Shown here in pieces: positions 5,676-39,041 of a stretch of DNA of 64,000 bases. The position numbers and the translations under genes were made by a program. A model generated the notes under the pieces. That model did no database searches. It was not told where the DNA came from and saw nothing but the letters and a program-made list of their open reading frames with translations. The stretch spans positions 1 through 64,000 of the IMG/VR virus record IMGVR_UViG_3300030508_000013. One strand, given 5' to 3'. The DNA comes from a virus. The first letter of the stretch is position 1, and each line of letters starts with the position of its first letter.

Positions 5676-6028
5676 CCTTTTGTCCAATTAGTTCGTTAGA
5701 CTAACCCGGTGTGCACTGACACCCGCCTACATTTTCATGTAGGAGCAGATCATATCTTCATCCTCTATTTCTAGTTAGGATGTTTCCCATTTCTGTCCAC
5801 TTGGACTCTACACCGTGGTAAGCGGTTGATCGTTGAACCTTTTCCATTTTACAGGAACTTGGCTGCTAAAGAGGATCTTAGATCCTACGGTTGCCCATTG
5901 TAATATCCGTTTCGTTTTTAGACCATGGCTTTGTCTTTCGACTCGCAGTGGTGAAACAGCTTTAGGGGGTTCCAGCAGTTAGAGAAAATTCATTTGAACA
6001 TTACTAATCAAATGGACTATATTTTTTA
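5676..6028 (-). ncRNA. Group I intron 1 in the beta gene (353 nt, no ORF)
   Basis: Reading leftward, exon 3 ends GGTGAT and the intron starts TAAAAAATATAG. It ends GGACAAAAGG with the expected terminal G at 5676, and joining gives ...GVGD-KGVF... in frame. The core is visible: the minus strand shows GGGCAACCGTAGG (P3/P4 region), GGTTCAACGATCA (R element, about 5827-5839) and GAAGATATGATCTGC (S element, about 5745-5759). GATCA and TGATC pair to form P7. It is a compact ribozyme lacking an endonuclease ORF. Its 3' half is nearly identical to intron 2. Confidence 0.85.
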
Positions 6029-11344: not shown

Positions 11345-13150
11345 ATCCCCACGTTGTTTACGTAAAGAGTACTTGATACCATTCACCGAATAAGTACCGT
11401 CTTCTTTTATTACGGGTAACTTAAACTCCATCGTAGATGTTGTCCCGTCTACCGGAGTAATTCTAACCTTATGTTTGTCATACGAACCTAAAACACTATC
11501 TTCACGTTCTACCTCATAGCCCGTTACTGCGATCCCGGCCTTCTGAACATTCATCACCATACCAGCCACATCTCGAGGCATGATATCAGTAACGTAGAGA
11601 CGATCAAAATCATGTAAACTCGATTTCAACATACTCTTATCATGGATAGTTTGTTTGTCGGCAATCGTAGTTACTGATTCGATAGCTAGTTGTTTTGGCT
11701 TAATATCAATAAACTTATCTAACGTCGTCTTGCCATCTGGCGAAACGATTGTTCTATAAGACTTTGATAACGTTTCATAACGTCGATACTCTGCAGCTGA
11801 TAAACGACCAATATCTGCTAAACGATCACACACCTTCATTACACCATCTTCTAGTGTTACAGGTTCATCAATAATGATATCTTCATGATGGCTCGTTGTG
11901 CTGTCGTTATGCGATCCGACATGTGCTCTAGAAATAGCTTCTAGTTCTGCTAAGTCCTCATCTAACCGAGCATCTAATTCTGCACTATGCGTTATATCGG
12001 CACCAGTATCGTCAGCGTGATCAGAATGTAGTGGATCGTAAGTTACTTCACTAGGTGGCGGGTTCTCTGTTTGCTTCAATTCTACAGCACCTGTAGCGCT
12101 GTTAATAACAGGTAATGATGTTGCTTGTGTAATAACAGGCGAAGCATTAGGGGCTGTTTGTACAGATACGCTATTATCGGAAGAATCAGTAGCGGTAACC
12201 GTAATATCAGATTTAATATCAACAGGAGTATTTTCTTTATCCCGCTGAACTTCATCTGTAACATCCGGCGAAGCAACAGTGCGCGCGTGAAACAAAGCCA
12301 TCATCAAACGTAAGAAACGTTTCTGAATTTGAGACGGCGTTAAGCCCTTTATATTTGCTTCTGGATCTTCTTCCAATTCTTCTTCAGTAGCAATGCGCCA
12401 TGAATTTAATTTACCCAGGTTAATGGCAAACCAGCGATTAGATTCAATAAATATTAAATTAACCTTATTCATTTCACCATCAGGCACGTGTGATAAAACA
12501 GAAGTTTTTCTATTATCACCTAACCATTTATAAATCTCTAAAATCATTAAGCTATCAGGATTATTAAAGATCTTTACGACATGTTGCGATATACCAGATG
12601 ATCCTAACCGAAGATCTGGTAAACTAGGTAATACAGTAGGCAATCTACAAGTAATGAAATTTTCTCTATCAGAAGTCGCCGTTACTACCGCTATATTTTT
12701 CCACACAGCTGATTGTGTATTCCACCATTTATAATACTCACTATAAAACGAACGTGGGTAACGATACATTTCTTGAAGAAATCCGTAATTATAAATAACT
12801 AGTGTATTCGGATCACGAGTGCTTATTTCAAGTGTTTTCATAAAACGAAAACGACGATTTTTACTATGGAAATGTCTTATTAGCCCCATTGGATTAATAG
12901 CGTGCCTTCTTGGCATTCCCTTCTCATCTCCTAATTCAGTAATATGACCAACGTTAATTGGTTTTGAAATATTACGAAACAAGAAGTCGTCAGGATCGGG
13001 GCCCATCACTATTGGGCTAGTTGATACATAGTGTAAAATAGATCTCTTTGGTAAATCTAACAGATCCATTTTTGGACATGGTGGATTCATCAAGTGCTCT
13101 GCTATTCTTACGCCATATTTTCTATACCAAATGTCATAAAAAAGATTCAT
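11345..13150 (-). CDS. Virion RNA polymerase beta subunit, exon 1 (phiKZ gp178-like N-terminus)
   Basis: Exon 1 encodes residues 1-602. The ATG is 5 nt after the stop of the spliced beta' gene, so the two are cotranscribed. The exon's end, EDGTYSVNGIKYSLRKQRGD, corresponds to E. coli beta NGTERVIVSQLHRSPG, the end of the N-terminal lobe. Residues about 287-433 are a low-complexity, acidic, Ser/Thr/Asp-rich insertion (TVTATDSSDNSVSVQTAP, HSDHADDTGAD, SHNDSTTSHHED) not expected in a polymerase core. In phiKZ-type phages this enzyme is packaged in the virion and transcribes early genes after injection. A TGA follows immediately after the splice point (11342). Confidence 0.85.
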
Positions 13151-13155
13151 TTTAA

Positions 13156-13324
13156 TTATCCATCTGTTAGATTATAAAGAACAAAAGCAACTGTTGCTAC
13201 GTCTATGCTGGAAGTAAACCTACCATCTGTTCCAACATAAGCTCTCTTTTTAGTAAGGTACTCGTCTACTTCTTTAACTGCTTCGTCAGAGTACGTTGCG
13301 TTACTGCTGACAGTATCGCCATCA
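13156..13324 (-). CDS. Virion RNA polymerase beta' N-terminal subunit, exon 2
   Basis: This short exon encodes the last 55 residues of the 541-aa beta' fragment. It supplies the second half of the catalytic motif, (F)DGDTVSSNATYSDEA, and ends LYNLTDG before TAA at 13156. It has no start codon of its own and is only meaningful after removal of the intron 13325-15113. After joining, the active-site motif reads GADFDGDTVS (Asp485, Asp487, Asp489), the three aspartates that hold the catalytic magnesium in all multisubunit RNA polymerases. Confidence 0.85.
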
Positions 13325-15113
13325 CTTACATATTACTTATATTCATAGTAATATGTTACTTTACATCACTGTAAAGAATAGACTATATCTTTATCTTTTA
13401 CTTTCATTGTAAGAAAGCAGTCAGATATCTCCCGTTTCGACGGATCTCCCGATCGGTCTACTTCCTTGCGGAATAGTCGTTGAGCCTTATCCATGCCCTT
13501 GTGAGGTTTAGGATCTTGGTTGCTATAGGGATTCTTAGAATCCACGGTTGCCTCACAGTTTATTAATAAAACAATATTAATAAAAGCAGTACTGAACGCG
13601 ATTAACTTTCAGTATAATGTAATATTCTTAAGCATTCACGCTCTGGTTTTCACCACACGTTGTAGCTATTACACTTTAGAGGGTTTCCAGCAATTAAAGA
13701 GATTTATTTTCATAGGCATTTCGGCCTAAGGACTCTGATTGATATTAAATTCTTTTTACTAAATATTGGTTTTTTATAAGTGACTTATTACTAATAGCGT
13801 GCATAATCATTCCATTTCCTCTATTAAGAAAAACAGATGCTTTTGCATAACTTGTAAATAATTGTTCAGTATTTGTTTTTGTATCAGTGACTATTACACC
13901 AGTTGTTTTTCCAACCGGATTAGCTAAGTATACAGTTATTTCATTTTCTGTATACACAGGCCATGGCGTTTCATCATTTTCCATTTTAAAATCATAACCT
14001 TTTAATGGTCGGTGATTTCTTTCATCTTTTAAATAAGAATGTATAGTCATAACTGCGCAGTTTGTTGCTCTGCTGCAATCAGCCACACTGGAATATGTAT
14101 TTATAACGCCAGTTACAATATTGCGTGTTTTAACTGAAGTAGGTACTCCAATATGAAGTTTACGATCAATTGTTTTTTCTTGGTCAGTAACTTCTCGCCA
14201 CGACGTCGCGTCTGTTTTAAGTTTGAATTGTAAAAATCCAGGATACACTGGTTGATTTTTAGCTTTTACACGATACTTAATTGTATCTTTGTTTAAGTTT
14301 AAATAATCTGCGCAGTCTACGTATCCTCTAAATTCTTTTACTTCACCAGTAACAACATTACGCATTAGAACTGTGGAGTCTATATTTTGTAGACCATTTT
14401 TCCATGCGTGAATGTTATTGTCTTTTCTTGTGGACCATTCTAAATTTTCTAATCTATCATCACCGGGTATTCCGTTAATGTGGTTTGTTACAAGTGAATC
14501 AACATTAACGGTGTAAGGAAGCCATGCAAGACAAATTAATCTATGTCTTCCTATTGATGTATCGTTACCAACATCTGGAGTGATTTTATATCTAGCATAC
14601 CCTGTATCGAAAAAATATTTCAATACTCTACCACTGGTCGCGTTAATAAGATTGCCAAATTTATTAATAGCGTAATTACTAAAGCCTGGTATGTATGCGT
14701 AATCTGAAAATTTATAATGAAGCATTCCGCCTTCTGGGAATTTCCACACTAGGTTACTTGGGTGACAGTTCTTTTTATTACCATCGACAAACATTACATC
14801 TATTCGGTGCCAGTGATGAAAAGGAACTGCAATTCTTTTAAAAGTTAATGCAACTAATACTGCAACTTTATAGTTTTGATACCCGTTCCACAAACACGCA
14901 TAAACTAATAAATTTCCATCAGCATCTACGGTGTGGGGAATAATACTGTTGTCACTTCCTTTTACCTCTCCCTGGTAATTAATGGAGTAAGCATTACTGG
15001 TAATAGGAATTCTAAAAAAACCTTCTACTTCGATATATTTTTCGAACATGTTATTTACTTATGTTGTATCTACATAGTATACATATTAGAAAAGAATTTA
15101 ATAATTTTACTTA
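13325..15113 (-). ncRNA. Group I intron 4, inside the beta' DFDGD codons (1789 nt, carries an HNH ORF)
   Basis: Exon 1 ends GAGCTGACTT, the intron begins TAAGTAAAAT and ends TATGTAAG at 13325, and exon 2 begins TGATGGCGAT. The join restores GAC TTT GAT GGC GAT (DFDGD). The expected T at the 5' exon end and G at the intron end are both present. R element GGCTCAACGACTATTCCG lies at about 13471-13488 and S element AAAGATATAGTC at about 13381-13392, forming P7. HNH ORF 13745-15049 fills the 5' part. Without splicing, beta' stops at 15107 with the motif cut off after Phe. Confidence 0.88.
13745..15049 (-). CDS. Intron-encoded HNH homing endonuclease with a duplicated, degenerate first module
   Basis: A 434-aa product. 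Residues about 135-225 form a normal NUMOD4-HNH unit: YIPGFSNYAINKFGNLIN, GRHRLICLAWLP, LVTNHINGIPGDDRLENLEW. NUMOD1-type repeats follow (FRGYVDCADYLNLNKDTIKYRV, then two weaker copies). The first about 115 residues repeat the same plan (FFRIPITSNAYSINYQGEV, then HRIDVMFVDGNKKNCHPSNLVW), but the leading GRHR and NH motifs are changed. This first nuclease is probably inactive. It lies inside intron 4 and should target the conserved DFDGD coding sequence. NUMOD and HNH assignments are by eye. Confidence 0.88.
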   Translation of the reverse strand: MFEKYIEVEGFFRIPITSNAYSINYQGEVKGSDNSIIPHTVDADGNLLVYACLWNGYQNYKVAVLVALTFKRIAVPFHHWHRIDVMFVDGNKKNCHPSNLVWKFPEGGMLHYKFSDYAYIPGFSNYAINKFGNLINATSGRVLKYFFDTGYARYKITPDVGNDTSIGRHRLICLAWLPYTVNVDSLVTNHINGIPGDDRLENLEWSTRKDNNIHAWKNGLQNIDSTVLMRNVVTGEVKEFRGYVDCADYLNLNKDTIKYRVKAKNQPVYPGFLQFKLKTDATSWREVTDQEKTIDRKLHIGVPTSVKTRNIVTGVINTYSSVADCSRATNCAVMTIHSYLKDERNHRPLKGYDFKMENDETPWPVYTENEITVYLANPVGKTTGVIVTDTKTNTEQLFTSYAKASVFLNRGNGMIMHAISNKSLIKNQYLVKRI

Positions 15114-16570
15114 AAGTCAGCTCCTAGTCGTGATAATTTAGCACTGTGTGGAATTGTACTATTTACAAACGCACCATCTTTAATAGGGAACTCATAAGCA
15201 GTGTGTTCAGCATCCATTGGTTCCCACTGATCATTCAGTTCTGACCGTACTTCTGATACTGTTGTTGTCTTTACAAAAGCTTTGCTAGGGTAAATACTAC
15301 CAACACCAGTAACAGGATAACGTGTAATGAATATTGGAAATTTATTCAACTCAGTATAACAAGATAAATAAAGTAGTTCACAGAACGTCAATGGATGTAC
15401 ATCATCTTTATTTCTTTCCAATGGCAATTCGTCTATATCTTGAATTAGCTTGAAAGTGTTATCGGGTCCTTTATAAATAAGACCAAGATAGTGCCCTTCG
15501 ATAATAATTGGTTTATGCCTGATAGCTTCTTCTGAGAAACTTGTAAGGACTTTTTCTATTCCTTCATCTGTCATCCATTTATCGAAGTATTGTGGTTTTA
15601 AAGCTACTTCCTCACAATGTAAAGTATTAACATTGACCAGCTTAGCTGGCGCTCCTACTTCTGTGAATACTTTAGATAAGAACCCATGTCGAATATGATA
15701 TCGTGCTACAGGCATAATAGATTTTAATAACTGATACAACCCAACGATTGTGTTATTAAAACCTACAGTACCTGGCGCGCCTAAATAAGATACACTGGTA
15801 TCCATTCCTGTAATGACATTACGTGTACCGTTCATCAAACCACGGGTTGCCCATTTACCTAGTAAGAGTTTATTCTTACCTTCTAACATGGCTTTGATAG
15901 TATTGTAAATTTCGTTAAAAGTTAGTTGTAAGTTATACCGTGCTCTGTCTAGCATTTCGGCATTGGTCTTTACAGCACTTTCAGAAATTGTATTTGCTAT
16001 TGTTAGTAGCTGTCGGTAAAGTTTATTGATTTCATCTTCACGTGGGCGGCCATCTGGGCCTATTTCTACATCTCGATAACCAGCAGGCATAACCAGTACT
16101 TTTGGCGTTAAAGCAACTTTCTTATATTTATTTATCATGAGAATGCTTTGTTCGCGTAACGGACTGCCGGTTTGCTCAAACTCTATATTTTCCCAATGTT
16201 CAAGGAAGAAATTGAATCCTGTTTTACCAACTAGATTATTAGATCTTTCAAAATTCTTTAGTTCTTCATTCCAGGTAACATACTCTGTACCGTTAATAAT
16301 ACCACCATACAAGCGTTTAAGCTTAACAACTGCTTCGTAGATTATTGGATGAAAAATAGGTATCTTAATATCGATAAAAGAGAAACGAAATAACCGTCTG
16401 TCATCTCCTTCTTTACCAAAAATAAGTGTAGAAAACAAACCATCTGGGTTGAATAAATTACTAGAGCCATCAAAGATATCTAGCTTAGTAACAGGTCGCA
16501 TATTTTGGAGTTTATTGGGTGTAAGCTCCAAAAGAGTTATGTTAAAAGGTATATCAGAACGTTGTGCCAT
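15114..16570 (-). CDS. Virion RNA polymerase beta' N-terminal subunit, exon 1 (phiKZ gp180-like)
   Basis: This encodes residues 1-485 plus two bases of codon 486. The N-terminus has NPDGLFSTLIFGKEGDD (about 41-57), the equivalent of the conserved beta' start RDGLFCARIFGP. Close to the splice site, RYPVTGVGSIYPSKAF and HSAKLSRLGAD precede the catalytic DFDGD completed by exon 2. The whole protein is 541 aa and ends about 50 residues after DFDGD. The C-terminal part of beta' must be another gene (as phiKZ gp80), not found in this window. It is transcribed divergently from the giant tail gene at 16654. Confidence 0.88.
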
Positions 16571-26821: not shown

Positions 26822-26859
26822 ATAGAGACCAGGATAAATCCTGGTCTCTATTTATGCCG
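26822..26859. terminator. Bidirectional terminator between convergent genes
   Basis: A perfect 13-bp stem (26822-26834 with 26839-26851, loop TAAA) is followed on the plus strand by TTATGCCG. That word overlaps the stop codon of the minus-strand gene (its last codons are GCA TAA). It separates the rightward tail transcript from the leftward 26852-28381 gene. Confidence 0.75.
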
Positions 26860-28381
26860 TTTGTGGAAGATTAGAAGAAGTTTGAGACGGTCCTGCGGGA
26901 GGAGGGCTTATGCTTCCTGTTGTCTTAATGTTGTTGTCATAAACGTCCGCGTACATTAGTTGTGGTCCAACGGATATATTTGTTCCAGCTAATACTACAG
27001 TTGCGCTTACCACAGTGGAACCATCACTAAAAGTGTAATAGACAATAGTTTCTATATCACCATTCGATAATGTGCGAGGAGGTGGCGCAGACACATTAGC
27101 CGATGATAAAGGTTCTGTCATGCAAAGTGAACTAGTGATCATTGGTGTAGAAACATCAGGTGTTCCGTTATTTGTACTTGTTGTAGTTAATGGCACTGGC
27201 GGTGCTGTGACTAGTGTGCCGTTAACTACAGTAGTTGCACTGCCATTATCCGATATACTTGTTGTAGTTGAAGTATACTGCATAATTGTCGGATCGGTAG
27301 AACCGCTAACATTAATATTACCAGACACGGGCGCTGTATTCGGGAATTGATTACCTAGTAATGTGTTAACATCTGTGCTTGACGATGGGTAAGCTGCTCC
27401 TAATAATGCTAGTTGATCAGGCGTAGCTGCATCTACCGGCACTGTAAAATCTGTTGACGGTAAAGCTGGAGCAGAGGACATCGCTGAACAAGATAAACTA
27501 TTTTGAAGATCAGGACTGCCATCTTGTAAAGCAGTAATGTCTCCACCAACACCGTTAACAGGACTGTTGTATACGTTCCAATTAGGGTTTACAGCAGCAT
27601 ATGTTGATGTGATGTTTGCGCTATTTGATAACAAATCAGCTGTTGTAGCGTTAGGACCATTATTAAAATTTGAACTAATGTTATTTAGTACATTTGGATT
27701 CAACGACAACAATGTGCCGCCACCAACAGAATTAGCCATTGCTGTAATCGACTGCAAATCTGAACTCTGCACAGCATTTGGTAAAACATTACCTGCAATG
27801 TTTGTTAAAATACCTTTGTCACTAATTCCACATGTGAGAGCACTAAAAGAGTTTGGTATTCCAGAACCCATCGCAATTTTAAGATACCCTGATGTTACTT
27901 CAGCAATAGCCCCAGGGTCGTCAATTGAAAAAGAATCATGACAAGCATTTCCATTAATCATTGCACCAATAGCAGCTATATCACCAAATGCTGTACCGAC
28001 TAAAGTTTTTGTTAAACCATTAACTGTAGCAGTTATGCCAGAGTTAGATGTTATTCCGTTAATTATAGAAGAAGCCGCGCTAGATGAAAGCTGGCTCAGT
28101 ACTGATCCCATTTCCGGCATAGATGAAGCTACACGAGCTGTTAATGTTGCTGCGCTTAATAATGCACTTGCAGCGCTTACAGCAGTAGCTGCTAATGAAG
28201 AAGCCGTGCTACTCATGCTTTTACCACCGCGTAAAGAATTAGCAATGGTGGGATTTGTAGCTGCTGTAATAGCAGCTACATCGGTAATAGGTGTATTGTT
28301 ATTTAGCGTGTATACGTCTGCTGTTGCAAGAGTATCTTTTGCGCCGCTAATAAAACTTGGCGTTGCTAAAGGATTTGACAT
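26852..28381 (-). CDS. Low-complexity virion-type protein (509 aa)
   Basis: A Ser/Thr/Ala/Asn/Gly-rich protein with almost no charged residues, typical of fibrous or scaffolded virion proteins. The frame extends to a TTG at 28399, but an AGGA Shine-Dalgarno 8 nt before the ATG at 28381 marks MSNPLATPSFISGAKD as the real start. The N-terminal third is Ala/Ser helical (ATAVSAASALLSAATLTA). The rest is beta-prone, with five scattered cysteines and a proline-rich tail. No domain recognised. It is a single-gene transcript facing the tail genes; structural role inferred. Confidence 0.6.
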   Translation of the reverse strand: MSNPLATPSFISGAKDTLATADVYTLNNNTPITDVAAITAATNPTIANSLRGGKSMSSTASSLAATAVSAASALLSAATLTARVASSMPEMGSVLSQLSSSAASSIINGITSNSGITATVNGLTKTLVGTAFGDIAAIGAMINGNACHDSFSIDDPGAIAEVTSGYLKIAMGSGIPNSFSALTCGISDKGILTNIAGNVLPNAVQSSDLQSITAMANSVGGGTLLSLNPNVLNNISSNFNNGPNATTADLLSNSANITSTYAAVNPNWNVYNSPVNGVGGDITALQDGSPDLQNSLSCSAMSSAPALPSTDFTVPVDAATPDQLALLGAAYPSSSTDVNTLLGNQFPNTAPVSGNINVSGSTDPTIMQYTSTTTSISDNGSATTVVNGTLVTAPPVPLTTTSTNNGTPDVSTPMITSSLCMTEPLSSANVSAPPPRTLSNGDIETIVYYTFSDGSTVVSATVVLAGTNISVGPQLMYADVYDNNIKTTGSISPPPAGPSQTSSNLPQTA

Positions 28382-28396
28382 ATTCAATTTCCTAAA

Positions 28397-28433
28397 CAAA
28401 AAAAAATAGGATAGAGATATATCTCTATCCTAT
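28397..28433 (-). terminator. Rho-independent terminator after the NADAR-like gene
   Basis: A perfect 13-bp stem (28406-28418 with 28421-28433) is followed on the minus strand by a run of T (complement of the A run ending at 28405). It lies 4 nt after the stop of 28438-28953. Confidence 0.85.
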
Positions 28434-28437
28434 CAAT

Positions 28438-28953
28438 TTAAATTGCTATAATTAATTCTGGGTATTTTGAATAATCCACATCTTTCGGACGTTGATTTTC
28501 TTTAAACAAAATACGTAATTCTTCAAATTCTTCAATAACGCGATTACGTTGTTTTGGCCGTATTACGATCTTGCCTGGACCCCAAAGATAATAATGTTCA
28601 AATGGAAGAGTTGATTCAATTAACAACTGCTTCATTTCTTCGTTCTGTTCGATCTTGTAATAATTCGCAGCTTTAATGCACGTTAAGAATTCTTTAAAAG
28701 TACCTCTAGTTAAATCCTTAGCATAGTTCTTTGCTTTTATACCAACCAGACCGCGCAGCTTATCATCTTTTTCTTTTGTACCAATGTAGTGATAAAAACC
28801 TTCCATTGAATTGAATGATCCAAAATAGGGATGGATAAACGGCGAATAGTAAAACTGAGATAGCATTTGTCCTAATTTTGTCTTACCAGTAATCCAGATA
28901 TTACAAAACTCAACGCCATCTTTAGAATTGTTATCAGACTGTACAATATTCAT
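28438..28953 (-). CDS. NADAR-like (YbiA/DUF1768) protein
   Basis: A 171-aa protein with the conserved start of the NADAR family: QMLSQFYYSPFIHPYFGSF (about 29-47), then NSMEGFYHYIGTKEKDD (about 48-64), and AKNYAKDL. Family members such as E. coli YbiA are N-glycosidases acting on riboflavin-pathway intermediates, and the wider family is linked to NAD/ADP-ribose metabolism. Some phages carry homologues whose role may be to process ADP-ribosylated products. It begins the leftward group 28438-30115 and is followed by a strong terminator. Assignment is motif-based; exact substrate unknown. Confidence 0.55.
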   Translation of the reverse strand: MNIVQSDNNSKDGVEFCNIWITGKTKLGQMLSQFYYSPFIHPYFGSFNSMEGFYHYIGTKEKDDKLRGLVGIKAKNYAKDLTRGTFKEFLTCIKAANYYKIEQNEEMKQLLIESTLPFEHYYLWGPGKIVIRPKQRNRVIEEFEELRILFKENQRPKDVDYSKYPELIIAI

Positions 28954-29025: not shown

Positions 29026-29499
29026 TTAATCCTCTGTTGTTTTATCAGCTAAGATTTGAACATATGGAACAGCCTCATCTTTTTCCGGTTGTTCTAAGTT
29101 TTCTATAAACTCAGCAAAGCTTTCTCTGTTACCAAATTGTACTTCGGTAGAGTGTAATGTTGTCATACCATTACCGTGATAAGCTTTAATTACAAGATCA
29201 ATTTTTATTATTTGTAGAAAACGTAATGCTTTACAAAAGACCTTCCATGTCATTTGCGGCTTGGCAAACTCTTTAGTGAGATTGCCTCGCATCGATGTTT
29301 GGTCTCTTTTATTATTAGGAATATTACGCTGTGTGTCTATGATGTAATCTTGTAAAAAACTACCAAATTTAGGAGGCATTATACCTAAGTCTAATAGCAT
29401 TTTTCTAAATAAACGTGACAGCACGCCATTGGGACCACTAGTCTTTGTTATTTCTTTATCGTGAGCTAATAAGATTCTAGCCATTTTATTTCTAGCCAT
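29026..29499 (-). CDS. Hypothetical phage protein (157 aa)
   Basis: A 157-aa protein, basic N-terminal two thirds, acidic tail. The core LSRLFRKMLLDLGI...SFLQDYII and MTWKVFCKALRFLQIIKIDL looks like a small helical DNA- or protein-binding domain. The start has a short repeat: ATGGCTAGA occurs twice, 15 nt apart (MARNKMARILL). The first ATG has GGAT 8 nt upstream and is preferred. Flanking genes are NADAR-like and unknown. No function assigned. Confidence 0.6.
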   Translation of the reverse strand: MARNKMARILLAHDKEITKTSGPNGVLSRLFRKMLLDLGIMPPKFGSFLQDYIIDTQRNIPNNKRDQTSMRGNLTKEFAKPQMTWKVFCKALRFLQIIKIDLVIKAYHGNGMTTLHSTEVQFGNRESFAEFIENLEQPEKDEAVPYVQILADKTTED

Positions 29500-29554: not shown

Positions 29555-30115
29555 TTAAGAAACACTAACTTCAATTAACTTCTTTGTAATTTCACGTAGA
29601 TTAATGAAAAGATTAGTAAGCATTCTAAGATTATACTCTGGGACGCCATATTGAGCGGTATCAGATTCCTCCATTATTTCACATAACTTAATACCAGCTT
29701 CTTTAAATATTTCTACAGCTTTTGGTACATCAACATAATAACCATCACTAGTAATTAAAAAATGATCTAAGGTCATACTTCTTGATTCAGCTATACCCCA
29801 TTCCCTAGGAATTTTTTTATCGTACTTAATGATAACAACAGCTTCTTTCAGTTTCTTAATATAGGTTTCAATATCAGGGTACAGTGGTTGTATGGTTATG
29901 CTTAAACCAACAGATACACTATAATTAGTTAATTTATTGCTATTTAATTCCTTTAGTAAAGTTTCACATAATTTTCTATTAGGAGCAAAAGGTGATTCTT
30001 TTATTATTTCCTTCTTAGGATTATTAAGACTAAATAATGATTTAAGATACTTAACTAGTTCACTAAACCACATAACATTTTCTAACCTCCAAACGTTATT
30101 CATCGTATACCTCAT
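29555..30115 (-). CDS. Hypothetical phage protein (186 aa or slightly shorter)
   Basis: A soluble 186-aa protein, mixed alpha/beta. Three in-frame starts compete: 30115, 30103 (MNNVW, AGG 6 nt upstream) and 30073 (MWFSEL, GGAGG 12 nt upstream). The conserved-looking middle is AVVIIKYDKKIPREWGIAES and LDHFLITSDGYYVDVP. No catalytic motif is recognised. It is the first gene of the leftward group, divergent from 30193. Confidence 0.55.
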   Translation of the reverse strand: MRYTMNNVWRLENVMWFSELVKYLKSLFSLNNPKKEIIKESPFAPNRKLCETLLKELNSNKLTNYSVSVGLSITIQPLYPDIETYIKKLKEAVVIIKYDKKIPREWGIAESRSMTLDHFLITSDGYYVDVPKAVEIFKEAGIKLCEIMEESDTAQYGVPEYNLRMLTNLFINLREITKKLIEVSVS

Positions 30116-30192: not shown

Positions 30193-30618
30193 ATGTCACT
30201 CTCTAATAATGAAGTTATACTAGATAGCGAAGAAAGTGTACTGTCGTATACCCACGCTAAAAGACTCTTCATTGTGGAGAGTATGTTACATGAAGGTAAA
30301 CTTCCAGAAGATCCTGCTGAGAAGAAAGTGCTTCTTAATGCGCTTGACGGCATGGATAAGATGGCAATTGGACGAATGCGTATTAAGATCGACGAGAAAG
30401 CCAATAAGAATATGGGGCAAGCTGCTGCTTTAGTAGCTCAGCTGTTATCATCTGGCAATATAGCGCATATGTATAATGTACCAAATGGCACAAATCGAGA
30501 TGCACCGTTGTTAGGTAGTGATGTTCCAGCACCAGACATTGTCAATGGTGAAACAGCTATTAATCCATTAGGTACGAATTACGAAGAATTTATGAATAAG
30601 ATTAAAACGGAAGCATAG
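30193..30618 (+). CDS. Hypothetical phage protein (141 aa)
   Basis: The 141-aa protein is helical in the first 85 residues (HAKRLFIVESMLHEGKLP, AEKKVLLNALDGMDKMA), with a flexible Gly/Asn/Pro-rich C-terminal part (VPNGTNRDAPLLGSDVPAPD). It is a single rightward gene between two leftward blocks, ended by a strong hairpin. No known domain recognised. A small structural or DNA-packaging adaptor is possible but unsupported. Confidence 0.65.
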   Translation: MSLSNNEVILDSEESVLSYTHAKRLFIVESMLHEGKLPEDPAEKKVLLNALDGMDKMAIGRMRIKIDEKANKNMGQAAALVAQLLSSGNIAHMYNVPNGTNRDAPLLGSDVPAPDIVNGETAINPLGTNYEEFMNKIKTEA

Positions 30619-30805
30619 AATTAGCTGATACGACTACGAGAAATGTTTCTTCTCGTAGTCGTTCGATCTCGGTAACGCATCGTCAGTTCCTATGTGACCT
30701 TTTCAACCATTGCATAGTTGATATTAGAACGTGGCTGCTTTATTCCCTATATCAGATTACCCTGTGTTACTAGGATAGTCTGATATGGGTAATATATGCC
30801 GTCTT
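30619..30805. other. 187-nt structured intergenic region (terminators, possible non-coding RNA)
   Basis: After the plus gene comes a 13-bp hairpin (ACGACTACGAGAA with TTCTCGTAGTCGT, about 30631-30660). Next to the end of the minus gene 30806-31516 is a long imperfect hairpin (CCCTATATCAGA with TCTGATATGGG, about 30746-30788) followed by TATGCCG at 30795-30801. The about 85 nt between them have no ORF. On the minus strand the middle holds AAAGCAGCCACGTTC, similar to TTAGCAGCCAAGTTCC of group I intron 1, but no P7 partner was found. Confidence 0.45.
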
Positions 30806-31516
30806 CTAATTCGGTTTGAGGATACTGAAATGTGAAACGTCGATGAGAGTTAGACTTATAAGTGGCGAAGCCAGCACCTCTAACGCCTTGAAGGGGTGTG
30901 TAGTTTCTTTCATAGTCTTCTTCAACTCTGCATCAGTTGGTGTTTTAACGAAGTATATAGCTGGTACAAGCAAAGTTACAGTTGGAAGCTGTGTTGCCTT
31001 AAATGCTTCACCTTGCATGTTCATCCATTCTTCGTAATCGTATTTTATTATAATCGCATACGTTTTACAATGCACGGGTGTGAGATCTTTGGTAGGTATA
31101 GATACCAACTCCACAGGAGCTAAGCCATCTAACCATACAGAAATTACTTTACCAAATTCTTCCATCTCCTCACCGGATAAAATATACGGATGAGTATTAA
31201 CTACAATCTTTAAACCATCGTGATATGGTCGTGTGATTGCTTGTTCCGCCATAACACTCACTAGGTGTCGTAGTAAGCTTATCGCGTTTGTTACAACAGA
31301 ATGTTTCAGTGTGGTAACATCGCGATTTTTATACAACTCTTTATACAAGTCTAAATCAATTCCCTCAAAATCATCACTAAGACGTTTTTGATAGTTTTCA
31401 TCGACCGATAATTTTTCAGCAATATTCTGATCCAAAATTGCGATAGTGCCAAGTCTTGTATCTAGCAGAACATCTAAGTCTACGTAGATAGTTTCTAGTT
31501 TCTTACTATTGGGCAT
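30806..31516 (-). CDS. Hypothetical protein, possible HAD-like start (236 aa)
   Basis: A 236-aa protein. The start LETIYVDLDVLLDTRLGTI resembles the DxD motif of HAD phosphatases, but the Asp-to-Val change after the second Asp and the lack of clear later motifs make this weak. The middle has alternating beta strands and helices (LKIVVNTHPYIL, YAIIIKYDYEEWM, TVTLLVPAIYFV). It is followed by 31595-32092 and the polymerase beta C-terminal gene upstream in the same leftward run. Function unknown. Confidence 0.6.
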   Translation of the reverse strand: MPNSKKLETIYVDLDVLLDTRLGTIAILDQNIAEKLSVDENYQKRLSDDFEGIDLDLYKELYKNRDVTTLKHSVVTNAISLLRHLVSVMAEQAITRPYHDGLKIVVNTHPYILSGEEMEEFGKVISVWLDGLAPVELVSIPTKDLTPVHCKTYAIIIKYDYEEWMNMQGEAFKATQLPTVTLLVPAIYFVKTPTDAELKKTMKETTHPFKALEVLASPLISLTLIDVSHFSILKPN

Positions 31517-31594: not shown

Positions 31595-32092
31595 TTATTT
31601 CGGTTTCTTTGGTAAAGCAGGTATATCGAAATTAACATATATCTGCAACATCAATAAACAAATGAGCCAACGATTGTTGTACAAAAGCATTGACCCCATT
31701 TCTTCTGTCATAAGGCGTTCAGATATTTGTCTTGGAATAACTGAATTAGCTATATCTACATTATCACCTACGCGCAATACAGATACGCCTCTTGCTATAT
31801 TTCCAGCAAGCCCTAATACCTGTTCATCGTTATTGCCCCAACGAGAAAAGAATACAGAAGACAATGTCAAAACAAAATCACGAACAATTTCATTCATGAA
31901 AACAAGTTCTACAATGTGAGGTAGCCCTTCCTCAGTAATCATCATGTAAGGCTTTTCTTTCAAAACAATATGTGTTACAAATTCTTTTACAGATTTACTT
32001 GACTCTGTTAGATAGTTGCTCAGAACATGGTTAAGTGACTGCGTAAATACAGTAGCTGCTTCTTCCATGTCAGTAGTATTAAGATTAGCCAT
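31595..32092 (-). CDS. Hypothetical helical protein (165 aa)
   Basis: The 165-aa protein looks all-helical. The C-terminal hydrophobic stretch WLICLLMLQIYVNFDIP (about 143-159) is long enough for a membrane segment but may be a buried helix. It starts 6 nt after the stop of 32099-32788, so it is cotranscribed and perhaps coupled with the beta C-terminal piece. This position makes a polymerase-associated role conceivable. No motif identifies it. Confidence 0.6.
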   Translation of the reverse strand: MANLNTTDMEEAATVFTQSLNHVLSNYLTESSKSVKEFVTHIVLKEKPYMMITEEGLPHIVELVFMNEIVRDFVLTLSSVFFSRWGNNDEQVLGLAGNIARGVSVLRVGDNVDIANSVIPRQISERLMTEEMGSMLLYNNRWLICLLMLQIYVNFDIPALPKKPK

Positions 32093-32098
32093 AGTTAT

Positions 32099-32788
32099 TT
32101 AAATTGTGGTCGAAAGATGCATTGATGTTAGAAGAGTTTTTAATGTTTCCGTACTCCTAACCTTACTATCGGCATGTGACATATTTGCTAAACTTACCCC
32201 GCCTGTCTTTGATATAGAAGCATTCATTAAATCGAATCCTTTTATATCTCCGCCCCGATATTTCAACATTTCTACTAAGTTATTATCCAGATTCATTGCC
32301 GCCATAATCTGAGTTTCTGGATAAGATATCTTACTACCTTTAGACTTACCTGTAGGTTGGCCAGTAAAGTCGTCAATTGATTTATTATCCTCAGGGATAG
32401 AAATCTTCTTGACCAATAACTGTGCTTGACGTTTCAAAGGTAAGTCTACAATCAAGTATTTAACAGGGGAAAGATACCTCGGAATATCTGTATCTCCAGA
32501 CATCCAAATTCTTTCGAAAAAATTATGACCTAGTTCTTCAGCTAAATCTAAATTATTATTAACAGTTAGTCGGCTTGATCCAAAGTTAGGAGAAATGATT
32601 GCTAATTTAATGGCCCCTTCATCTAGCTTTGTCATAAAGTCGTGGAACTGAGTATCGTCCATTGACGCAAAGAGATTGATATATGTCTGTTGATTCTCTG
32701 TAACTTTATTATTTTCTTCTGGCAGAATTTTACCAATCCATTCGATAATAAAATCTTCAGCAGCTTTACGATTTGTTTTACCCGTCAT
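32099..32788 (-). CDS. RNA polymerase beta C-terminal fragment (separately encoded)
   Basis: A 229-aa protein that can be laid along the end of bacterial beta. [19 protein letters not shown] matches the GYMYMLKLNHLVDDKMH region. [20 protein letters not shown] matches [40 protein letters not shown] matches [21 protein letters not shown]. The ending [18 protein letters not shown] matches ESFNVLLKEIRSLGINIEL. The spliced beta gene at 5463-13150 stops before this region, so this gene probably supplies the missing end, as the split beta of phiKZ does with two genes. It could instead belong to the second, non-virion polymerase. The alignment was made by eye. Confidence 0.65.
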   Translation of the reverse strand: [229 protein letters not shown]

Positions 32789-33122: not shown

Positions 33123-33545
33123 CTATTCCTCAACGTCTATTAAAACAACAGTAACATGTTCTTCGCCATGCGCTTTATTGAAAATGTCAATCATGTTCCA
33201 TGTACCTCTAGACTTAGAATCCCAAAACGTAATTAAGTCTGTAGCCACTTTATTCATTTTCATATTCCTAACATACCCAGCGCTCTTACCAATATCCCAG
33301 TCAGCTGGAAACTCAGCCCATGGTAGACGATGCTCTATACACCATCTAATAATCATGTCGTCAGCCCCAGTCCTAGCCTTACCTGAAATAAAGATAATTG
33401 ACTTATCACCAAACTTTTTTACGAATTCAAACATTCTTTTCGAGAAACGTTCGTAGTCGTTATAGTACCGGCTACCCGCAACAATCAATCGAATTTCAAA
33501 ATCATTTATTGCGGAGTGAGGGGAAGGTTGTGGCGAATAATACAA
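33123..33545 (-). CDS. DUF2493 / SLOG-domain protein (YspA-like)
   Basis: A 140-aa protein with the Rossmann-like SLOG signature: RLIVAGSRYYNDYERF (about 19-34), IIFISGKARTGADDMIIRWC (about 50-69) and SAGYVRNMKMNKVATDLITF (about 88-107). SLOG proteins bind nucleotide-derived ligands. The start is a TTG at 33545: no ATG lies before the domain, and AAGGAG stands 7 nt upstream, an excellent Shine-Dalgarno. This start overlaps the end of the upstream gene by 40 nt. Ligand and role in the phage are unknown. Confidence 0.8.
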   Translation of the reverse strand: MYYSPQPSPHSAINDFEIRLIVAGSRYYNDYERFSKRMFEFVKKFGDKSIIFISGKARTGADDMIIRWCIEHRLPWAEFPADWDIGKSAGYVRNMKMNKVATDLITFWDSKSRGTWNMIDIFNKAHGEEHVTVVLIDVEE

Positions 33546-33856
33546 GGGACTACTCCTTGTTCGAATAATTCGACCCAGCGTTTAATCTCGCCAGTGTCAA
33601 CTAATTGATAACGAATATCAAGCGTGTCTTCGATCTTATTAATATCTAGCTCGCCAAGAATCTGATGCCAAGCACGATTGATAAGGAAACGCTGAATATC
33701 AAGTGTGCGTGGGTTAAACGCATCTGGGTTCAATCTAGATGTCCAAGCTTCTGGATTCGGATGATTGTGTTTAATAAGTATTTTTGTAACAACGTCCACC
33801 AGATCAGGAGGCGTAGCTTCAGAAGTGTTATTATTCTCTACATTATTCGTTGTCAT
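33506..33856 (-). CDS. Hypothetical phage protein (116 aa)
   Basis: The 116-aa protein has a polar, disordered N-terminus (MTTNNVENNNTSEATPPD) and a helical remainder (DIQRFLINRAWHQILGEL). It overlaps the following SLOG gene by 40 nt, which places the SLOG Shine-Dalgarno inside its coding sequence and suggests translational coupling. No motif recognised. Confidence 0.6.
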   Translation of the reverse strand: MTTNNVENNNTSEATPPDLVDVVTKILIKHNHPNPEAWTSRLNPDAFNPRTLDIQRFLINRAWHQILGELDINKIEDTLDIRYQLVDTGEIKRWVELFEQGVVPCIIRHNLPLTPQ

Positions 33857-33889: not shown

Positions 33890-34261
33890 CTAATCATTGT
33901 TAAAACATTTATTTTTTGGAAGAGCTAATGCAGCTGGATGCATTGGTAAAGCATGTATTTCGTTTTGGTGTTTCATATACCGTTTAATCTTAGGAAGCTT
34001 TACTTGCCTAGCTTCTTCAATTGCAGTCGCATCTAAATCACCAGCGTCCACCATGATCTGTAGAGCCGCTAGAAAGTCACCGATCTCTCTTTCTAGATCA
34101 GATTTATTATCCCATCTAAGATTTTCAAAACTAGGTTGTAGACCGTGTATAGCTATCTTGCCAATCTTTTGTTGAAGCTGTCCTAGTTCTTGCTGAATCT
34201 CACCAGTCTCTTCAGACATCTTACCAAAACGTTCTAGTTGCCCAGGCGTCATGTTATTCAT
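33890..34261 (-). CDS. MazG-like nucleotide pyrophosphohydrolase
   Basis: A 123-aa all-helical protein with the MazG-type metal site: EExxE at Glu17-Glu18-Glu21 (KMSEETGEIQQELG) and ExxD at Glu59-Asp62 (EREIGDFLAAL). MazG-like enzymes hydrolyse nucleoside triphosphates to monophosphates. Phage versions are proposed to clean nucleotide pools or alter alarmone signalling. The Lys-rich helix (KLPKIKRYMKHQNE) near the end also fits the family. It sits in a run of small accessory genes upstream of the SLOG gene. Substrate not determinable from sequence. Confidence 0.7.
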   Translation of the reverse strand: MNNMTPGQLERFGKMSEETGEIQQELGQLQQKIGKIAIHGLQPSFENLRWDNKSDLEREIGDFLAALQIMVDAGDLDATAIEEARQVKLPKIKRYMKHQNEIHALPMHPAALALPKNKCFNND

Positions 34262-34267
34262 AATAGG

Positions 34268-34721
34268 TTACTCCGCGTAAAGAGATTTAACACTTTCTTC
34301 GTTTTTTATTTGTTGCTTATCGTTAGGTGTCTTAAGTCTACGATCAATAGCAACTGGTATATCGGAGACACGCATATTTATAATTTCCATCTTTCTTAGC
34401 TGTTCTGGCCAAGGAGATTTAATGAAACGACCATCTTCCATCTCTTCTTGGCCAGAACCGATATACGTCCATCAGGTGTTCTGTACATATATGCTGGTTC
34501 GCGTGTTTTCTCAATAGTGTATTCATTAGGAAGACCAGTAATTACATAAACACCATTATTTTTAAAGTGACGTACTTCATCACCTATAGAAAAATAATTG
34601 GGTATGTAATATTTTTTAAAATTTTACTACGTTTATTTTTAAAGTAGAAGATTAATGCGCAAATAAATATAAGTGCGCACTCCAGTGTAATTAAACCACA
34701 AATACGAACGTCTTCATTCAT
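34268..34721 (-). pseudogene. Membrane-anchored DUF1653-like protein gene with two frame breaks
   Basis: An ATG at 34721 overlaps the stop of the RecA-like gene (TAATG). Its frame gives MNEDVRICGLITLECALIFI plus basic residues, one membrane helix, and stops at 34584. The -1 frame continues as GDEVRHFKNNGVYVITGLPN...REPAYMYRTPDGR, resembling DUF1653-type beta proteins. A second -1 step near 34465-34475 is needed to read GSGQEEMEDGRFIKSPWPEQ through to YAE and TAA at 34268. The first shift lies on T TTA AAA AAT, a canonical slippery sequence. The second has none, so decay or sequencing error is more likely than programmed shifting of both. Confidence 0.55.
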
Positions 34722-36187
34722 TATTCTTCCTCGAATATAAATTCTTCTTTAATTGTTTTCTTATCAGCGTTTAACCAGTATGGAAAATACAAACCTTTTC
34801 GCATTCTTAATAGATCCTTTACGCTTAAGAACGGGATAGGATGTTTATCGTTATTGATAGTCCACCACCCTCTTGTATTTGATAGGATTAGTTTCCAATC
34901 AAACCCTATCTTTGTTAAGTCTTCGTATAGTTCTTTTGGCGTGCAAAGAATATCACGATCCATCGTCCGCCAGAGTTGATCCATTTGGCACATCTGTGAA
35001 GTTATTTCCAAAGCGCGACGCAACATTGGATCGTTGTCAATCTTACCACGAATAGTAGTTCTAGACAACTTTACATCTGGAAGTAATTCTAACGAATAAG
35101 AATGATCCTTAGGTCCGCCAGTGAAGCCGTAACGATCTTCTTCTTTGATGTAGTGAAATTCTGACAGACTAGGTAAGATACCTTCTGCTTGAGAAACGAT
35201 TAGGCGAATTTCAATTCCAGACACACCAGCTTTACCACGTAAATTCTTAATCTTGATAACATTTAAGTCCGTATCAAAACGCATGTCGTCTTCAGAATCA
35301 TGCGGATACTCAGGGCCTTTTGTTCCGTCGTTTATCAATGGCGTGGCATTAAAGATGTGCCAGCAGTTATGTGTATTTGTTGTAAATTTCTTTGTTGTTC
35401 CCATGATCTTATCACCACCTTTTAAGTGGGTCAAAGTTCTCACAGGAATTTCTTTACCAGGACCAGCTGACTGCATCATGGTTTCTTTACCAAGATGTGC
35501 TGTCATAAGCAGATAGTTATACGCTTCAGCATTCAAACGTGCTGCTTCCATCAAGAATCGCAACTTTGCTAAACCTTGACGCATGTGAAGTGTATTTGCT
35601 CCAGATTCACCTAGACTATTCTTATCCTGCATGTCAATGACATCATCTGTTTCGAAATCAGTAAAACTATCGACTTCAGTAAACGTAGGCTGTATAATGT
35701 AAAGTGGACCTTTATGATCACGATTCCAAAACGGTGTTAGCACTTGTAGTTTTGATGCGTTCTTAATCTTTCTTGCAAGAAATTCTTTTTGTACGTCGTA
35801 CCATGCATTACCTGAGTATTTTACTTTACCAGTTAATGTTACGCGTTTTGTTTCGAAAACATCAATTCCACCAAATTCAGGAATTCGATCAGCAATAGTT
35901 TGCACGTGATCTTCTTCAATACTTTCTTCTGTATCGTAAATGCTGCCTGTTGAACCAGCCATGCGGGCCACACATGTGAGGAACTGAAAACGTTCAAATG
36001 TTGATTTAAACATGTTGCCATAACCAACAGTACCTGTCGTGGTAGCGACACCACCATTTAAGATATACTCACCATAGCGACCCTCTACGAAGTTACCAGT
36101 GGGAATATCTAATAACGCCCCTACATTTATTTTAATCTTAACAACTTCGGATGGTTCGAATGTTTGTGTCAATAAACTGTGATCCAC
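34721..36187 (-). CDS. RecA/UvsX-like recombinase or ATPase
   Basis: A 488-aa protein with an unusual P-loop, GYGNMFKST (55-63, Lys61), which has the spacing of T4 UvsX GPSKSFKSN rather than the bacterial GPESSGKTT. It is followed at the expected distance by SIYDTEESIEED (82-93), like the UvsX/RecA acidic strand end. Later NLRGKAGVSGIEIRLIVSQ and an aromatic-rich C-terminal part are compatible with the RecA core plus an extension. phiKZ-type phages encode a comparable RecA-like protein. Likely role: recombination or DNA maintenance in the infected cell. Assignment is motif-level. Confidence 0.6.
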   Translation of the reverse strand: MDHSLLTQTFEPSEVVKIKINVGALLDIPTGNFVEGRYGEYILNGGVATTTGTVGYGNMFKSTFERFQFLTCVARMAGSTGSIYDTEESIEEDHVQTIADRIPEFGGIDVFETKRVTLTGKVKYSGNAWYDVQKEFLARKIKNASKLQVLTPFWNRDHKGPLYIIQPTFTEVDSFTDFETDDVIDMQDKNSLGESGANTLHMRQGLAKLRFLMEAARLNAEAYNYLLMTAHLGKETMMQSAGPGKEIPVRTLTHLKGGDKIMGTTKKFTTNTHNCWHIFNATPLINDGTKGPEYPHDSEDDMRFDTDLNVIKIKNLRGKAGVSGIEIRLIVSQAEGILPSLSEFHYIKEEDRYGFTGGPKDHSYSLELLPDVKLSRTTIRGKIDNDPMLRRALEITSQMCQMDQLWRTMDRDILCTPKELYEDLTKIGFDWKLILSNTRGWWTINNDKHPIPFLSVKDLLRMRKGLYFPYWLNADKKTIKEEFIFEEE

Positions 36188-37407: not shown

Positions 37408-37465
37408 GGCATAAAAAATGTACCTACACAATACGATAGATTTGTATTGTGTAGGTACATATGCC
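37408..37465. terminator. Bidirectional terminator with GGCATA/TATGCC collar
   Basis: GGCATA (37408-37413) and TATGCC (37460-37465) flank a perfect 17-bp stem (37418-37434 with 37444-37460, loop GATAGATTT). It separates the convergent genes ending at 37404 and 37470. Confidence 0.8.
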
Positions 37466-37469: not shown

Positions 37470-38975
37470 TTACTTAATAGTTTTATCTGTCGATATTAAT
37501 CGGAGATTAGCGTAGCAATTACCCCATATGCCTTTGTCAGGTCCTGCTTCGATTACTGTAGCGTAACGAAATACTTTTGCATCTTCTAACCATGTCACAA
37601 GTGTTACTTTAGGATTACGTTCTTCTAATCGTTTTAACGCATTACGATCAAGTACGTCTTGTCCCAAAGTTAATGTGATAGGCGCGGACTTTATAGTACC
37701 GTCTACTGATTTATAATTAGCATCAATTTTTAACGCAGCAAATCCAACAGTATATTCTGGTTTAAGTTTTAGAATTTCTGTTACTTCGTTATTCTTACTA
37801 GTCTTAGTAGTTACTTCATAAAGAACAGGTGTTAAGTCTGTTGTAACGATTTCGGCATCTTTACTAAGATATTTTGTAAGAATTACAGATAAATTACCAA
37901 TAGTATCAACTACACGCATAGCCGTCTTAACAGGCGATAATTCGTGCGTTAAAGGTTCTTTATCTAGACAGTATAAATCGAGTGCATATGGATTAGGTCT
38001 GACCATTGCAATCGAGCCGTGCTTTGCAAGTTCTTTATGTACATCAGGTTTAAACAACTGATCAACACGCAACATGATTAGTGTGTCTATATTACCAGAC
38101 ATTGCTGATTGATGTGCACGGATCATTTCGATAACAGGATCAGGAGTCTCTAACTTTACAACAGCGTGAGCGCCATCGCTAACACGCTTCCCGATCATAT
38201 CGTCGTCTTTACCATGTTCGCCAAGATAATATTCACCAGGCTCAATGAACTCACTAAATGTATTGAAATACATTCGCCGATTATTTAAAAACGGATGTCT
38301 TTCTGGGGAATATTTCCAATATCCGTCCGCTGCTGATGTGGTGACATCATTACGAAACACATGTGCTTTGGAATACATTACACCGAGTGTAGCGAGTTTA
38401 TCAGCTAAAAAGTTACCTAGATATCCTTCTGAGGCAACGTCGTCGGTATGAGCAGACACCCAGTCTACTTTAACCTTAACACCTTTACTAACTAAACGAT
38501 CTCGTATTTCAACAAGAGTTTTCCAGTATTCTACATTAGCAGGTGGTTGGCCATCGTTCTTCAACCAACCATTCTTTTTCCAGCTTTCTGCCCAACTAGC
38601 TAAACCCTTACACACGTGCTCGCTGTCGGTAAATATTTGTATTTCACTTAATACAAATTGTTCGGCATATATAAGACCTTGGGTCGTCGCTGTTAATTCT
38701 GCAATGTTATTTGTAACTTCATCGTTAAAAGAACCACAACCATCAAGATAACTAATAGGCGTTACTTCTGGTAAATATTCTTTTGGTTTATTTGCTTTGT
38801 TCTCAGAAGATATGGACTTTAATACATAACCTTTTGATGTTAAAACAAAATCCGAATTACCAGATCCTTTTTTAGGAACAGCAGTTGAATACAGATAACC
38901 ATGTATACCCCAACCACCAAATCCTCTTGATGGTCGACAACCGCCATCTGTGAAAATAACTATTCCTTGTTCCAT
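37470..38975 (-). CDS. Ribonuclease H type I with long C-terminal extension
   Basis: A 501-aa product. With the start at 38975 (GGAG 9 nt upstream; an earlier in-frame ATG at 38990 lacks one), the RNase H catalytic residues are Asp10 (IFTDGG), Glu93 (NNIAELTA), Asp117 (IFTDSEHV) and Asp192 (NFLADKLA), in the normal order and spacing. RNase H removes RNA from RNA-DNA hybrids, useful for primer removal. The domain ends near residue 210. The remaining 290 residues are a separate mixed alpha/beta region I do not recognise, which makes this much longer than the usual 150 aa enzyme. Confidence 0.88.
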   Translation of the reverse strand: MEQGIVIFTDGGCRPSRGFGGWGIHGYLYSTAVPKKGSGNSDFVLTSKGYVLKSISSENKANKPKEYLPEVTPISYLDGCGSFNDEVTNNIAELTATTQGLIYAEQFVLSEIQIFTDSEHVCKGLASWAESWKKNGWLKNDGQPPANVEYWKTLVEIRDRLVSKGVKVKVDWVSAHTDDVASEGYLGNFLADKLATLGVMYSKAHVFRNDVTTSAADGYWKYSPERHPFLNNRRMYFNTFSEFIEPGEYYLGEHGKDDDMIGKRVSDGAHAVVKLETPDPVIEMIRAHQSAMSGNIDTLIMLRVDQLFKPDVHKELAKHGSIAMVRPNPYALDLYCLDKEPLTHELSPVKTAMRVVDTIGNLSVILTKYLSKDAEIVTTDLTPVLYEVTTKTSKNNEVTEILKLKPEYTVGFAALKIDANYKSVDGTIKSAPITLTLGQDVLDRNALKRLEERNPKVTLVTWLEDAKVFRYATVIEAGPDKGIWGNCYANLRLISTDKTIK

Positions 38976-39041
38976 GCTTTCTTTCTCCATAACTAAATGT
39001 TATTCTACAATATTACTGAAACAGGTAAAAAAGAATAGTTA

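Follow-up and report, generated by a model that had tools for sequence, protein, structure and literature searches.

An open reading frame at 28438-28953 of the window (the whole stretch of 64,000 nucleotides of viral DNA analysed here) raises the question whether the phage carries a NADAR protein, and if it does, what this protein is for. A sequence-only reading had proposed a NADAR-family gene lying among accessory genes, which together with nearby SLOG and MazG-like genes would act on nucleotide signals of host defence.

The predicted fold of the 28438-28953 product

The frame, as called in the window, is on the minus strand, starts with ATG and encodes 171 amino acids; a TAAGG-like ribosome site can be read directly from the window sequence 5' of the start codon. 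The AlphaFold model of the protein (41 aligned rows) has a pLDDT of 94.5 and a pTM of 0.89. Structure alignment of the model by VIA-align 2 gave Z 11.7 with E. coli YbiA (2b3w; 131 residues, 2.9 A), Z 11.3 with a NADAR containing ADP-ribose (8bau; 137 residues, 3.0 A) and Z 10.3 with a further NADAR (8bat; 145 residues, 3.7 A), and no other chain among the 117 aligned had a Z score of 2 or higher. In the Foldseek search the same three structures were at the top with probabilities of 0.98-1.00, the remaining 18 chains listed having 0.03 or less. Judged by structure alignment, the protein has the NADAR/YbiA fold as defined in the consulted part of PMC11125620. The sequence-only reading was to be given up if there was no structural match to NADAR; both programs found one, and at the level of the predicted model we regard the NADAR/YbiA fold as confirmed.

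Support from sequence comparison is weaker than that from the fold, yet agrees with it. A scan of Pfam and NCBIfam with E values up to 1 returned no match for the window protein. Neither this protein nor the rest of its record matched Pfam NADAR (PF08719) above cut-off, Phage_30_3 (PF08010) did not match it either and matched two of the 41 family rows weakly (best 0.098), and PADLOC had no match for it. A search of PDB sequences with the 41-row profile missed the NADARs and returned a single unrelated chain (E 1.1). Pfam NADAR was matched by 7/41 rows at E up to 1 (best 2.1e-4), and profile comparisons connected the family with T4 gp30.3 (hhalign probability 79, E 1.6e-5) and with YbiA (probability 36, E 3.8e-4). 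The PHROGs families matched, phrog_652 (2e-32), phrog_11222 (1e-20) and phrog_1017 (4e-4), are all without an assigned function. We call the protein a NADAR because its fold matches; Pfam misses it.

With the window NADAR as query, tblastn matched 461 phage records (E limit 0.1), 170 of them at a query coverage of at least 80%. Among relatives dN/dS was 0.04-0.44 in all ten pairs that gave a value, out of 15, and 0.08-0.20 in lineages that have Gln or Gly at the place of the catalytic glutamate (position 51); these values are rough, because most dS values were near or above 1. Between the window NADAR and its nearest relative dS was saturated, hence there is no dN/dS for the window gene itself. 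That the frame arose by chance is ruled out by the fold, the matching phage records and the purifying selection among relatives.

Genes around NADAR

The features of the region are listed below in window coordinates; block copies are those of the survey described in the next section.

26852..28399, minus: Ser/Thr/Ala-rich protein, last gene of the run, directly 3' of NADAR (phrog_5028, 1.6e-31; relatives in 36/52 block copies)
28405..28434, minus: candidate intrinsic terminator directly 3' of the NADAR stop (14-nt perfect inverted repeat, then a T run)
28438..28953, minus: NADAR-fold protein, 171 aa (AlphaFold, Foldseek, structure alignment; E51, G58, H120)
29026..29499, minus: phrog_4910 protein, immediately upstream of NADAR (PHROGs, 8.6e-18)
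29555..30115, minus: block gene (PHROGs; relatives in 28/52 copies)
30193..30618, plus: small reversed block gene (phrog_5894)
30806..31516, minus: phrog_3328 gene, phiKZ gp147-like position (PHROGs; relatives in 52/52 copies)
31595..32092, minus: block gene, phiKZ gp148-like position (PHROGs; relatives in 28/52 copies)
32099..32788, minus: RNA polymerase beta-subunit piece, the survey anchor (phrog_3233, 5.3e-75)
33123..33545, minus: SLOG protein, YAcAr family (Pfam YAcAr, PF10686, 43.8 bits, cut-off 28.2; relatives in 35/52 copies)
33506..33856, minus: small gene overlapping the SLOG start (weak likeness to phrog_6181, phiPA3 173, 0.0022)
33890..34261, minus: MazG-like protein (phrog_4856, 3e-9; Pfam MazG 14.4 bits vs cut-off 22; relatives in 4/52 copies)
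34721..36187, minus: UvsX/RecA-like recombinase position (similarity to annotated AH06 and phiPA3 genes; no Pfam match of its own)
37470..38990, minus: ribonuclease H-containing protein, upstream end of the block (best E 3.5e-22, NCBIfam, below the model's cut-off)

From about 39 kb down to 26.9 kb the genes follow the order found in phiKZ-like phages: RNase H, a reversed gene, the UvsX-like gene, small genes, SLOG and a small gene, then the RNA polymerase beta piece, four genes (one of them reversed), phrog_4910, NADAR and the Ser/Thr/Ala-rich protein. Most of what had been described as accessory genes belongs to a conserved block that also contains UvsX-like, RNase H and RNA polymerase genes. 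The SLOG neighbour was recognised correctly, its score being well above the Pfam cut-off. The MazG assignment is probable from the phrog_4856 match, but the Pfam MazG score is below cut-off, and for this reason we call the protein MazG-like only.

The terminator candidate past the NADAR stop (28434-28405) suggests that NADAR may end its transcript; terminator-like sites of the intrinsic type are not in excess in the region (four found vs 6.1 expected from shuffles). Long inverted repeats are present at gene ends (26822-26851, 37418-37460, 30630-30662 and 30741-30794), several of them between convergent genes, and these are likely to be two-way terminators. In another part of the window four group I introns (5726-6041, 6999-7325, 10013-10422 and 13359-13756) lie on the minus strand within 5726-15049. 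A large RNA polymerase beta gene is present in this region as three pieces (phrog_3148, at 11342-13150, 8377-10140 and 6026-6901), and three HNH or homing endonuclease ORFs (13745-15049, 10434-10913 and 7317-8312) lie amid the introns; a further RNA polymerase beta gene (phrog_2986) occupies 15107-16570 in the same neighbourhood.

A relative of phiPA3 gp53, the phage-nucleus shell protein, was present in 10 of the 11 records searched: phiPA3 itself, FLC9, AH06, LucasX, five contigs from related lineages and, as a partial match, SURPRISE13. No such relative was detected in the 165-kb record to which the window belongs, which is probably incomplete. The window phage would presumably form a nucleus. 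Macro, Nudix and NAPRTase had no match in this record either, which may be a fragment.

The residues of the SLOG motifs GxR, GxAxxGxD, AxW, AGxxRNxxM and SxG are invariant in the 30 aligned SLOGs, and the T that follows is nearly so. The model of the window SLOG (pLDDT 92.5) has DprA and ShosA as its closest PDB matches (E 1.2e-3), YpsA following at rank 41; no PDB match had an E value of 0.001 or better. Going by the model, a nucleotide pocket and a DprA-like role on DNA are both possible.

Occurrence of NADAR and SLOG in the block

The survey was anchored on the polymerase piece. The best 80 of its 114 matches in viral contigs were pooled with nine phage records, the window and the twin contig of the window, giving 91 loci with the anchor, which formed 64 clusters at 90% polymerase identity. 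Twelve were dropped for flanks shorter than 3.5 kb upstream or 6.8 kb downstream, leaving 52 block copies, the window included. Relatives were counted by single-sequence searches with window proteins as queries.

A NADAR relative was detected in 41/52 copies with the window NADAR alone as query, and in 39/52 it lay downstream of the polymerase piece, 3.0-7.0 kb from the start of that piece. The window SLOG found relatives in 35/52. Both were present in 27 copies, NADAR only in 14, SLOG only in eight and neither in three. Their presence is uncorrelated (odds ratio 0.72, Fisher p = 1.0, 52 copies), which does not support an obligate NADAR-SLOG pair. MazG, with its four relatives, is not a constant member of the block. 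A search for NADAR elsewhere in 12 records (those of the 11 copies without NADAR and one more; two are the same phage and some are fragments) gave one match. The additional upstream matches that a SLOG profile gave in Proteus phage 10 and the AH06-type loci seem to reflect profile drift: two of them (survey loci L004, 3741-4157, and L013, 5719-6132) had no SLOG match in Pfam. A genuine SLOG is also present in these loci.

Some loci deviate from the usual arrangement. Four (L059, L087, L093 and L008) hold a pair of adjacent NADARs in the downstream slot, of which one is far more divergent. In L035, L036 and L076 the downstream-slot NADARs carry an N-terminal extension of about 150-190 residues, and all three have Gly at the glutamate place. 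A 326-residue NADAR protein is encoded outside the block at L105:555-1535; its C-terminal half is without a Pfam match.

The active site of the window NADAR

According to the consulted part of PMC11543638, efficient hydrolysis by the E. coli C7 NADAR needs K95 (K50 of 8bau), a lysine seven residues past the catalytic glutamate (E43 in 8bau, E88 in C7). Arg at this place still hydrolyses in vitro, E88A has a minor effect in vitro, E88Q is inactive, D171 is needed, and the third catalytic place is His in phage NADARs (PMC11543638).

By alignment, E51 of the window protein occupies the place of the glutamate, and G58 that of the lysine, where there is neither Lys nor Arg. H120 lies in the last-strand motif PFEHYY, a part where the C-terminal alignment with T4 gp30.3 is off by one residue. 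The Asp that DarT1-linked antitoxins have at the third place is absent from this motif, and no match to an ART, such as a linked DarT toxin, was found in Pfam or PHROGs among the ten neighbouring window proteins scanned; the protein does not appear to be of the DarT1-linked antitoxin type. On the ADP-ribose side, E51, K75, K79 and W124 correspond by motif to E43, K75, R79 and W133 of 8bau.

Conservation was counted in an alignment (A3) of 41 rows, the window and 40 of the 47 survey NADARs. The glutamate is kept in 34 rows and the His in 22; at the lysine place 15 rows have K and nine have R. Glu, Lys and His occur together in 3/41 rows, and Glu with Lys or Arg and His in 10/41. None of the 41 rows departs from D12, N18, G28, H41, F47 or R147, and every row has K or R at position 100. 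In eight other phage records the NADAR has the Glu and the His in 8/8 and Lys in 2/8, the remaining six having Leu; H41 is absent from six of the eight. The seven NADARs outside the alignment are second copies or divergent ones, in six of which no glutamate was seen by eye, so that the erosion of the active site as counted is, if anything, too low.

Because of G58, and because the full triad is found in only three rows, hydrolysis by the window NADAR is uncertain. On account of G58 we assign it to NADAR for its fold alone and do not class it among the NADAR hydrolases. Judged from the alignment, it is safer to claim ADP-ribose binding; hydrolysis may take place with the help of another basic residue, or the protein may only bind.

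Fusions of NADAR, SLOG, Macro and MazG-like domains

Both domains are present in phrog_11222, of which positions 11-148 are matched by the window NADAR and 152-272 by the window SLOG. Gene 160 of Erwinia phage AH06 is a NADAR::SLOG fusion; the second gene upstream of it encodes a Macro protein, which scores 40.3 bits with Pfam Macro (cut-off 22). L090 is arranged in the same way; the SLOG part of the L094 fusion spans two frames. L091:7085-8371 is a single 428-residue frame with the order Macro::NADAR::SLOG. Proteus phage 10 has Macro::SLOG; its N-terminal part is 'phosphatase' in PHROGs, yet AH06 gene 158 (Macro) matches it at 8.8e-71, and as sole query this gene finds L090, L094, L091 and Proteus phage 10. 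In L042:9287-9988 a MazG-like::SLOG fusion forms one 233-residue frame, matched by the window MazG-like protein at 7e-8 (Pfam MazG 17 bits, below cut-off); in the window the two are separate genes.

In a tree of 52 NADARs, from which one LucasX segment was left out, the four fused NADARs cluster with one downstream-slot NADAR (98/90), nested in a bigger set of downstream-slot and other phage NADARs; the window NADAR clusters with L029 and L032 (98/85). Fused and separate forms are one family. Being midpoint-rooted, the tree gives no direction of change between them.

The fusions of SLOG with NADAR, with Macro, with both, and with a MazG-like domain show these domains to be treated as a single functional set. 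The earlier idea of a set acting on nucleotide signals gains from these links, but the missing correlation of NADAR with SLOG, the rarity of MazG and the absent catalytic lysine speak against parts of it.

Comparison with known systems

T4 gp30.3 belongs to the same fold family as the window NADAR by profile comparison, and both are stand-alone proteins. It is described as His-type in the consulted part of PMC11125620, and H120 may be the counterpart of this His in the window protein. Unlike the window protein it keeps the lysine, and the gene neighbourhoods differ. The same source reports that guanine-ADP-ribose is hydrolysed by gp30.3 in vitro, and that cells were not rescued from DarT1 by it. 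YbiA and the DarT1-linked NADARs (2b3w, 8bau, 8bat) share the fold and the glutamate with the window NADAR at 12-15% identity, whereas the window protein is without the catalytic lysine and there is no DarT among the neighbours scanned. A NADAR-type anti-DarT factor is reported at T-even gene 61.2; inspected by eye, the translation of T4 61.2 showed no NADAR motif, and no conclusion drawn here relies on this gene.

AH06 gene 160, annotated as DNA processing protein A, is in the same block and has the same two domains as the window, its NADAR part being 36.5% identical to the window NADAR (tblastn), but here the domains are fused and sit between UvsX and the polymerase piece. The Burkholderia phages FLC9 and SURPRISE13 are arranged like the window, with a separate SLOG upstream and a stand-alone NADAR downstream; the FLC9 polymerase piece is 64% identical. 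FLC9 gp45 has, unlike the window NADAR, an extended N-terminus and R in place of the lysine; the SURPRISE13 NADAR has Q at the glutamate and N at the lysine place.

Iyer, Burroughs, Aravind and co-workers (PMC7824862, PMC9503650) described SLOG of large phages fused to or neighbouring Macro and NADAR, and proposed that they counter ADP-ribose-derived host signals; in the parts consulted, these fusions and neighbourhoods are common to their phage sets and the window's block. The parts of their text consulted contain no description of the UvsX-to-polymerase block, of a MazG-like::SLOG fusion or of NADAR lysine loss. Searches of a collection of papers for NADAR with Chimalliviridae found nothing, and for NADAR with phiKZ only PMC7824862 was, by title, on the subject among the papers listed. 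A search for MazG with SLOG and phage gave only PMC9503650 and PMC7824862, whose MazG passages do not mention such a fusion. Three features may thus not have been reported before: the fixed place of NADAR in the block, the fusion of a MazG-like domain to SLOG, and the loss of the lysine in many NADARs. The counter-defence idea for phage NADAR, SLOG and Macro is already in print, and the best reading of the window gene is that it belongs to this set.

Discussion

We give about an even chance to the reading that the window protein is a NADAR-fold ADP-ribose binder, which, within the SLOG/Macro/NADAR set of the phiKZ-like block, counters host defences that use NAD. The protein would bind an ADP-ribosyl N-glycoside, and some NADAR lineages probably still hydrolyse it. 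NADAR would be part of a set of domains handling ADP-ribose and nucleotides (SLOG, Macro, NADAR and occasionally MazG-like), housed in the conserved replication/transcription block of phiKZ-like jumbo phages. Its likeliest role would be to neutralise ADP-ribose products of NAD-using defences, whether these are soluble signals or ADP-ribose groups on phage nucleic acid. The fold, the presence in 41/52 copies, in 39 of them at a near-fixed position, the SLOG fusions, the purifying dN/dS, the residues kept on the ADP-ribose side and the in vitro activity of T4 gp30.3 argue for this reading. It is weakened by G58, the uncorrelated presence of NADAR and SLOG, the failure of gp30.3 to rescue cells from DarT1, the missing NADAR in 11/52 copies, and the absence of Macro, Nudix and NAPRTase matches from the record, possibly a fragment, and of a PADLOC match.

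A rather doubtful alternative is that the stand-alone NADAR of the block has kept fold and binding but does not cleave, serving as an ADP-ribose sensor or scaffold. The loss of the glutamate in 7/41 and of the His in 19/41 rows would fit, as would the lysine place, K or R in 24 rows and Gly in the window, the dN/dS of 0.08-0.20 that persists in lineages with Gln or Gly for the glutamate, and the divergent NADARs without glutamate. The window protein, however, keeps E51 and H120, the basic residue at position 100 could substitute for the lysine, Glu and His are kept in all eight other phage records, though Lys in only two, and Arg at the lysine place was compatible with hydrolysis in vitro in another NADAR (PMC11543638). 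It seems unlikely to us that the set is directed at DNA repair, with a DprA-like SLOG binding ssDNA beside the UvsX-like recombinase, and NADAR and Macro acting as interchangeable guanine and thymine ADP-ribose erasers that protect phage DNA from DarT-type toxins. NADAR does reverse guanine, and DarG-type Macro thymine, ADP-ribosylation (PMC11543638 and PMC11125620, in the parts consulted), SLOG adjoins the UvsX-like gene, DprA is closest to the SLOG model, and NADAR::SLOG, Macro::SLOG and Macro::NADAR::SLOG fusions exist. Yet the top DprA match has an E value of only 1.2e-3, the MazG-like::SLOG fusion fits free nucleotides better, gp30.3 gave no rescue from DarT1 (PMC11125620), and neither family is clearly basic (median pI 7.9 and 7.8), overall charge being uninformative as a signature of DNA binding.

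We consider it quite improbable that the protein merely clears by-products of phage or host nucleotide metabolism, such as riboflavin-type N-glycosides or NAD breakdown products, and takes no part in counter-defence. YbiA is annotated as an N-glycosidase, NADARs have been tied to riboflavin intermediates (PMC11125620, in the part consulted), and the surrounding block is one of replication and transcription; on the other hand, the patchy loss of NADAR and the recurrent fusions with SLOG and Macro are more like those of conflict genes, and NAPRTase is without a match in the window's record. Similarly improbable, in our estimate, is a more elaborate picture, an old two-slot module in the recombinase-to-polymerase block of phiKZ-like, nucleus-forming jumbo phages. 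The first slot would be a SLOG hub of DprA-like fold whose ADP-ribose erasers can be exchanged, NADAR dealing with guanine adducts and Macro with thymine adducts, singly or together. The second would be a stand-alone NADAR acting as an ADP-ribose sensor, its hydrolytic lysine lost in many lineages including the window's; jointly they would guard phage DNA or transcription against NAD-based defence.

The setting is now sharper than in the sequence-only reading: the block is conserved and no island of accessory genes, fusions link its domains directly, and the catalytic set is incomplete. Large phages commonly carry NADAR genes, and T4 gp30.3 is the only phage NADAR with measured activity in the parts of the literature consulted. 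The NADAR of phiKZ-like phages is nearly fixed in its position and tied by fusion to SLOG, Macro and MazG-like domains, and cultured phages with this block, FLC9, SURPRISE13, AH06 and Proteus phage 10, are usable for experiments. With these phages one could address the question which ADP-ribose product counts in infection, adducts on DNA or soluble signals.
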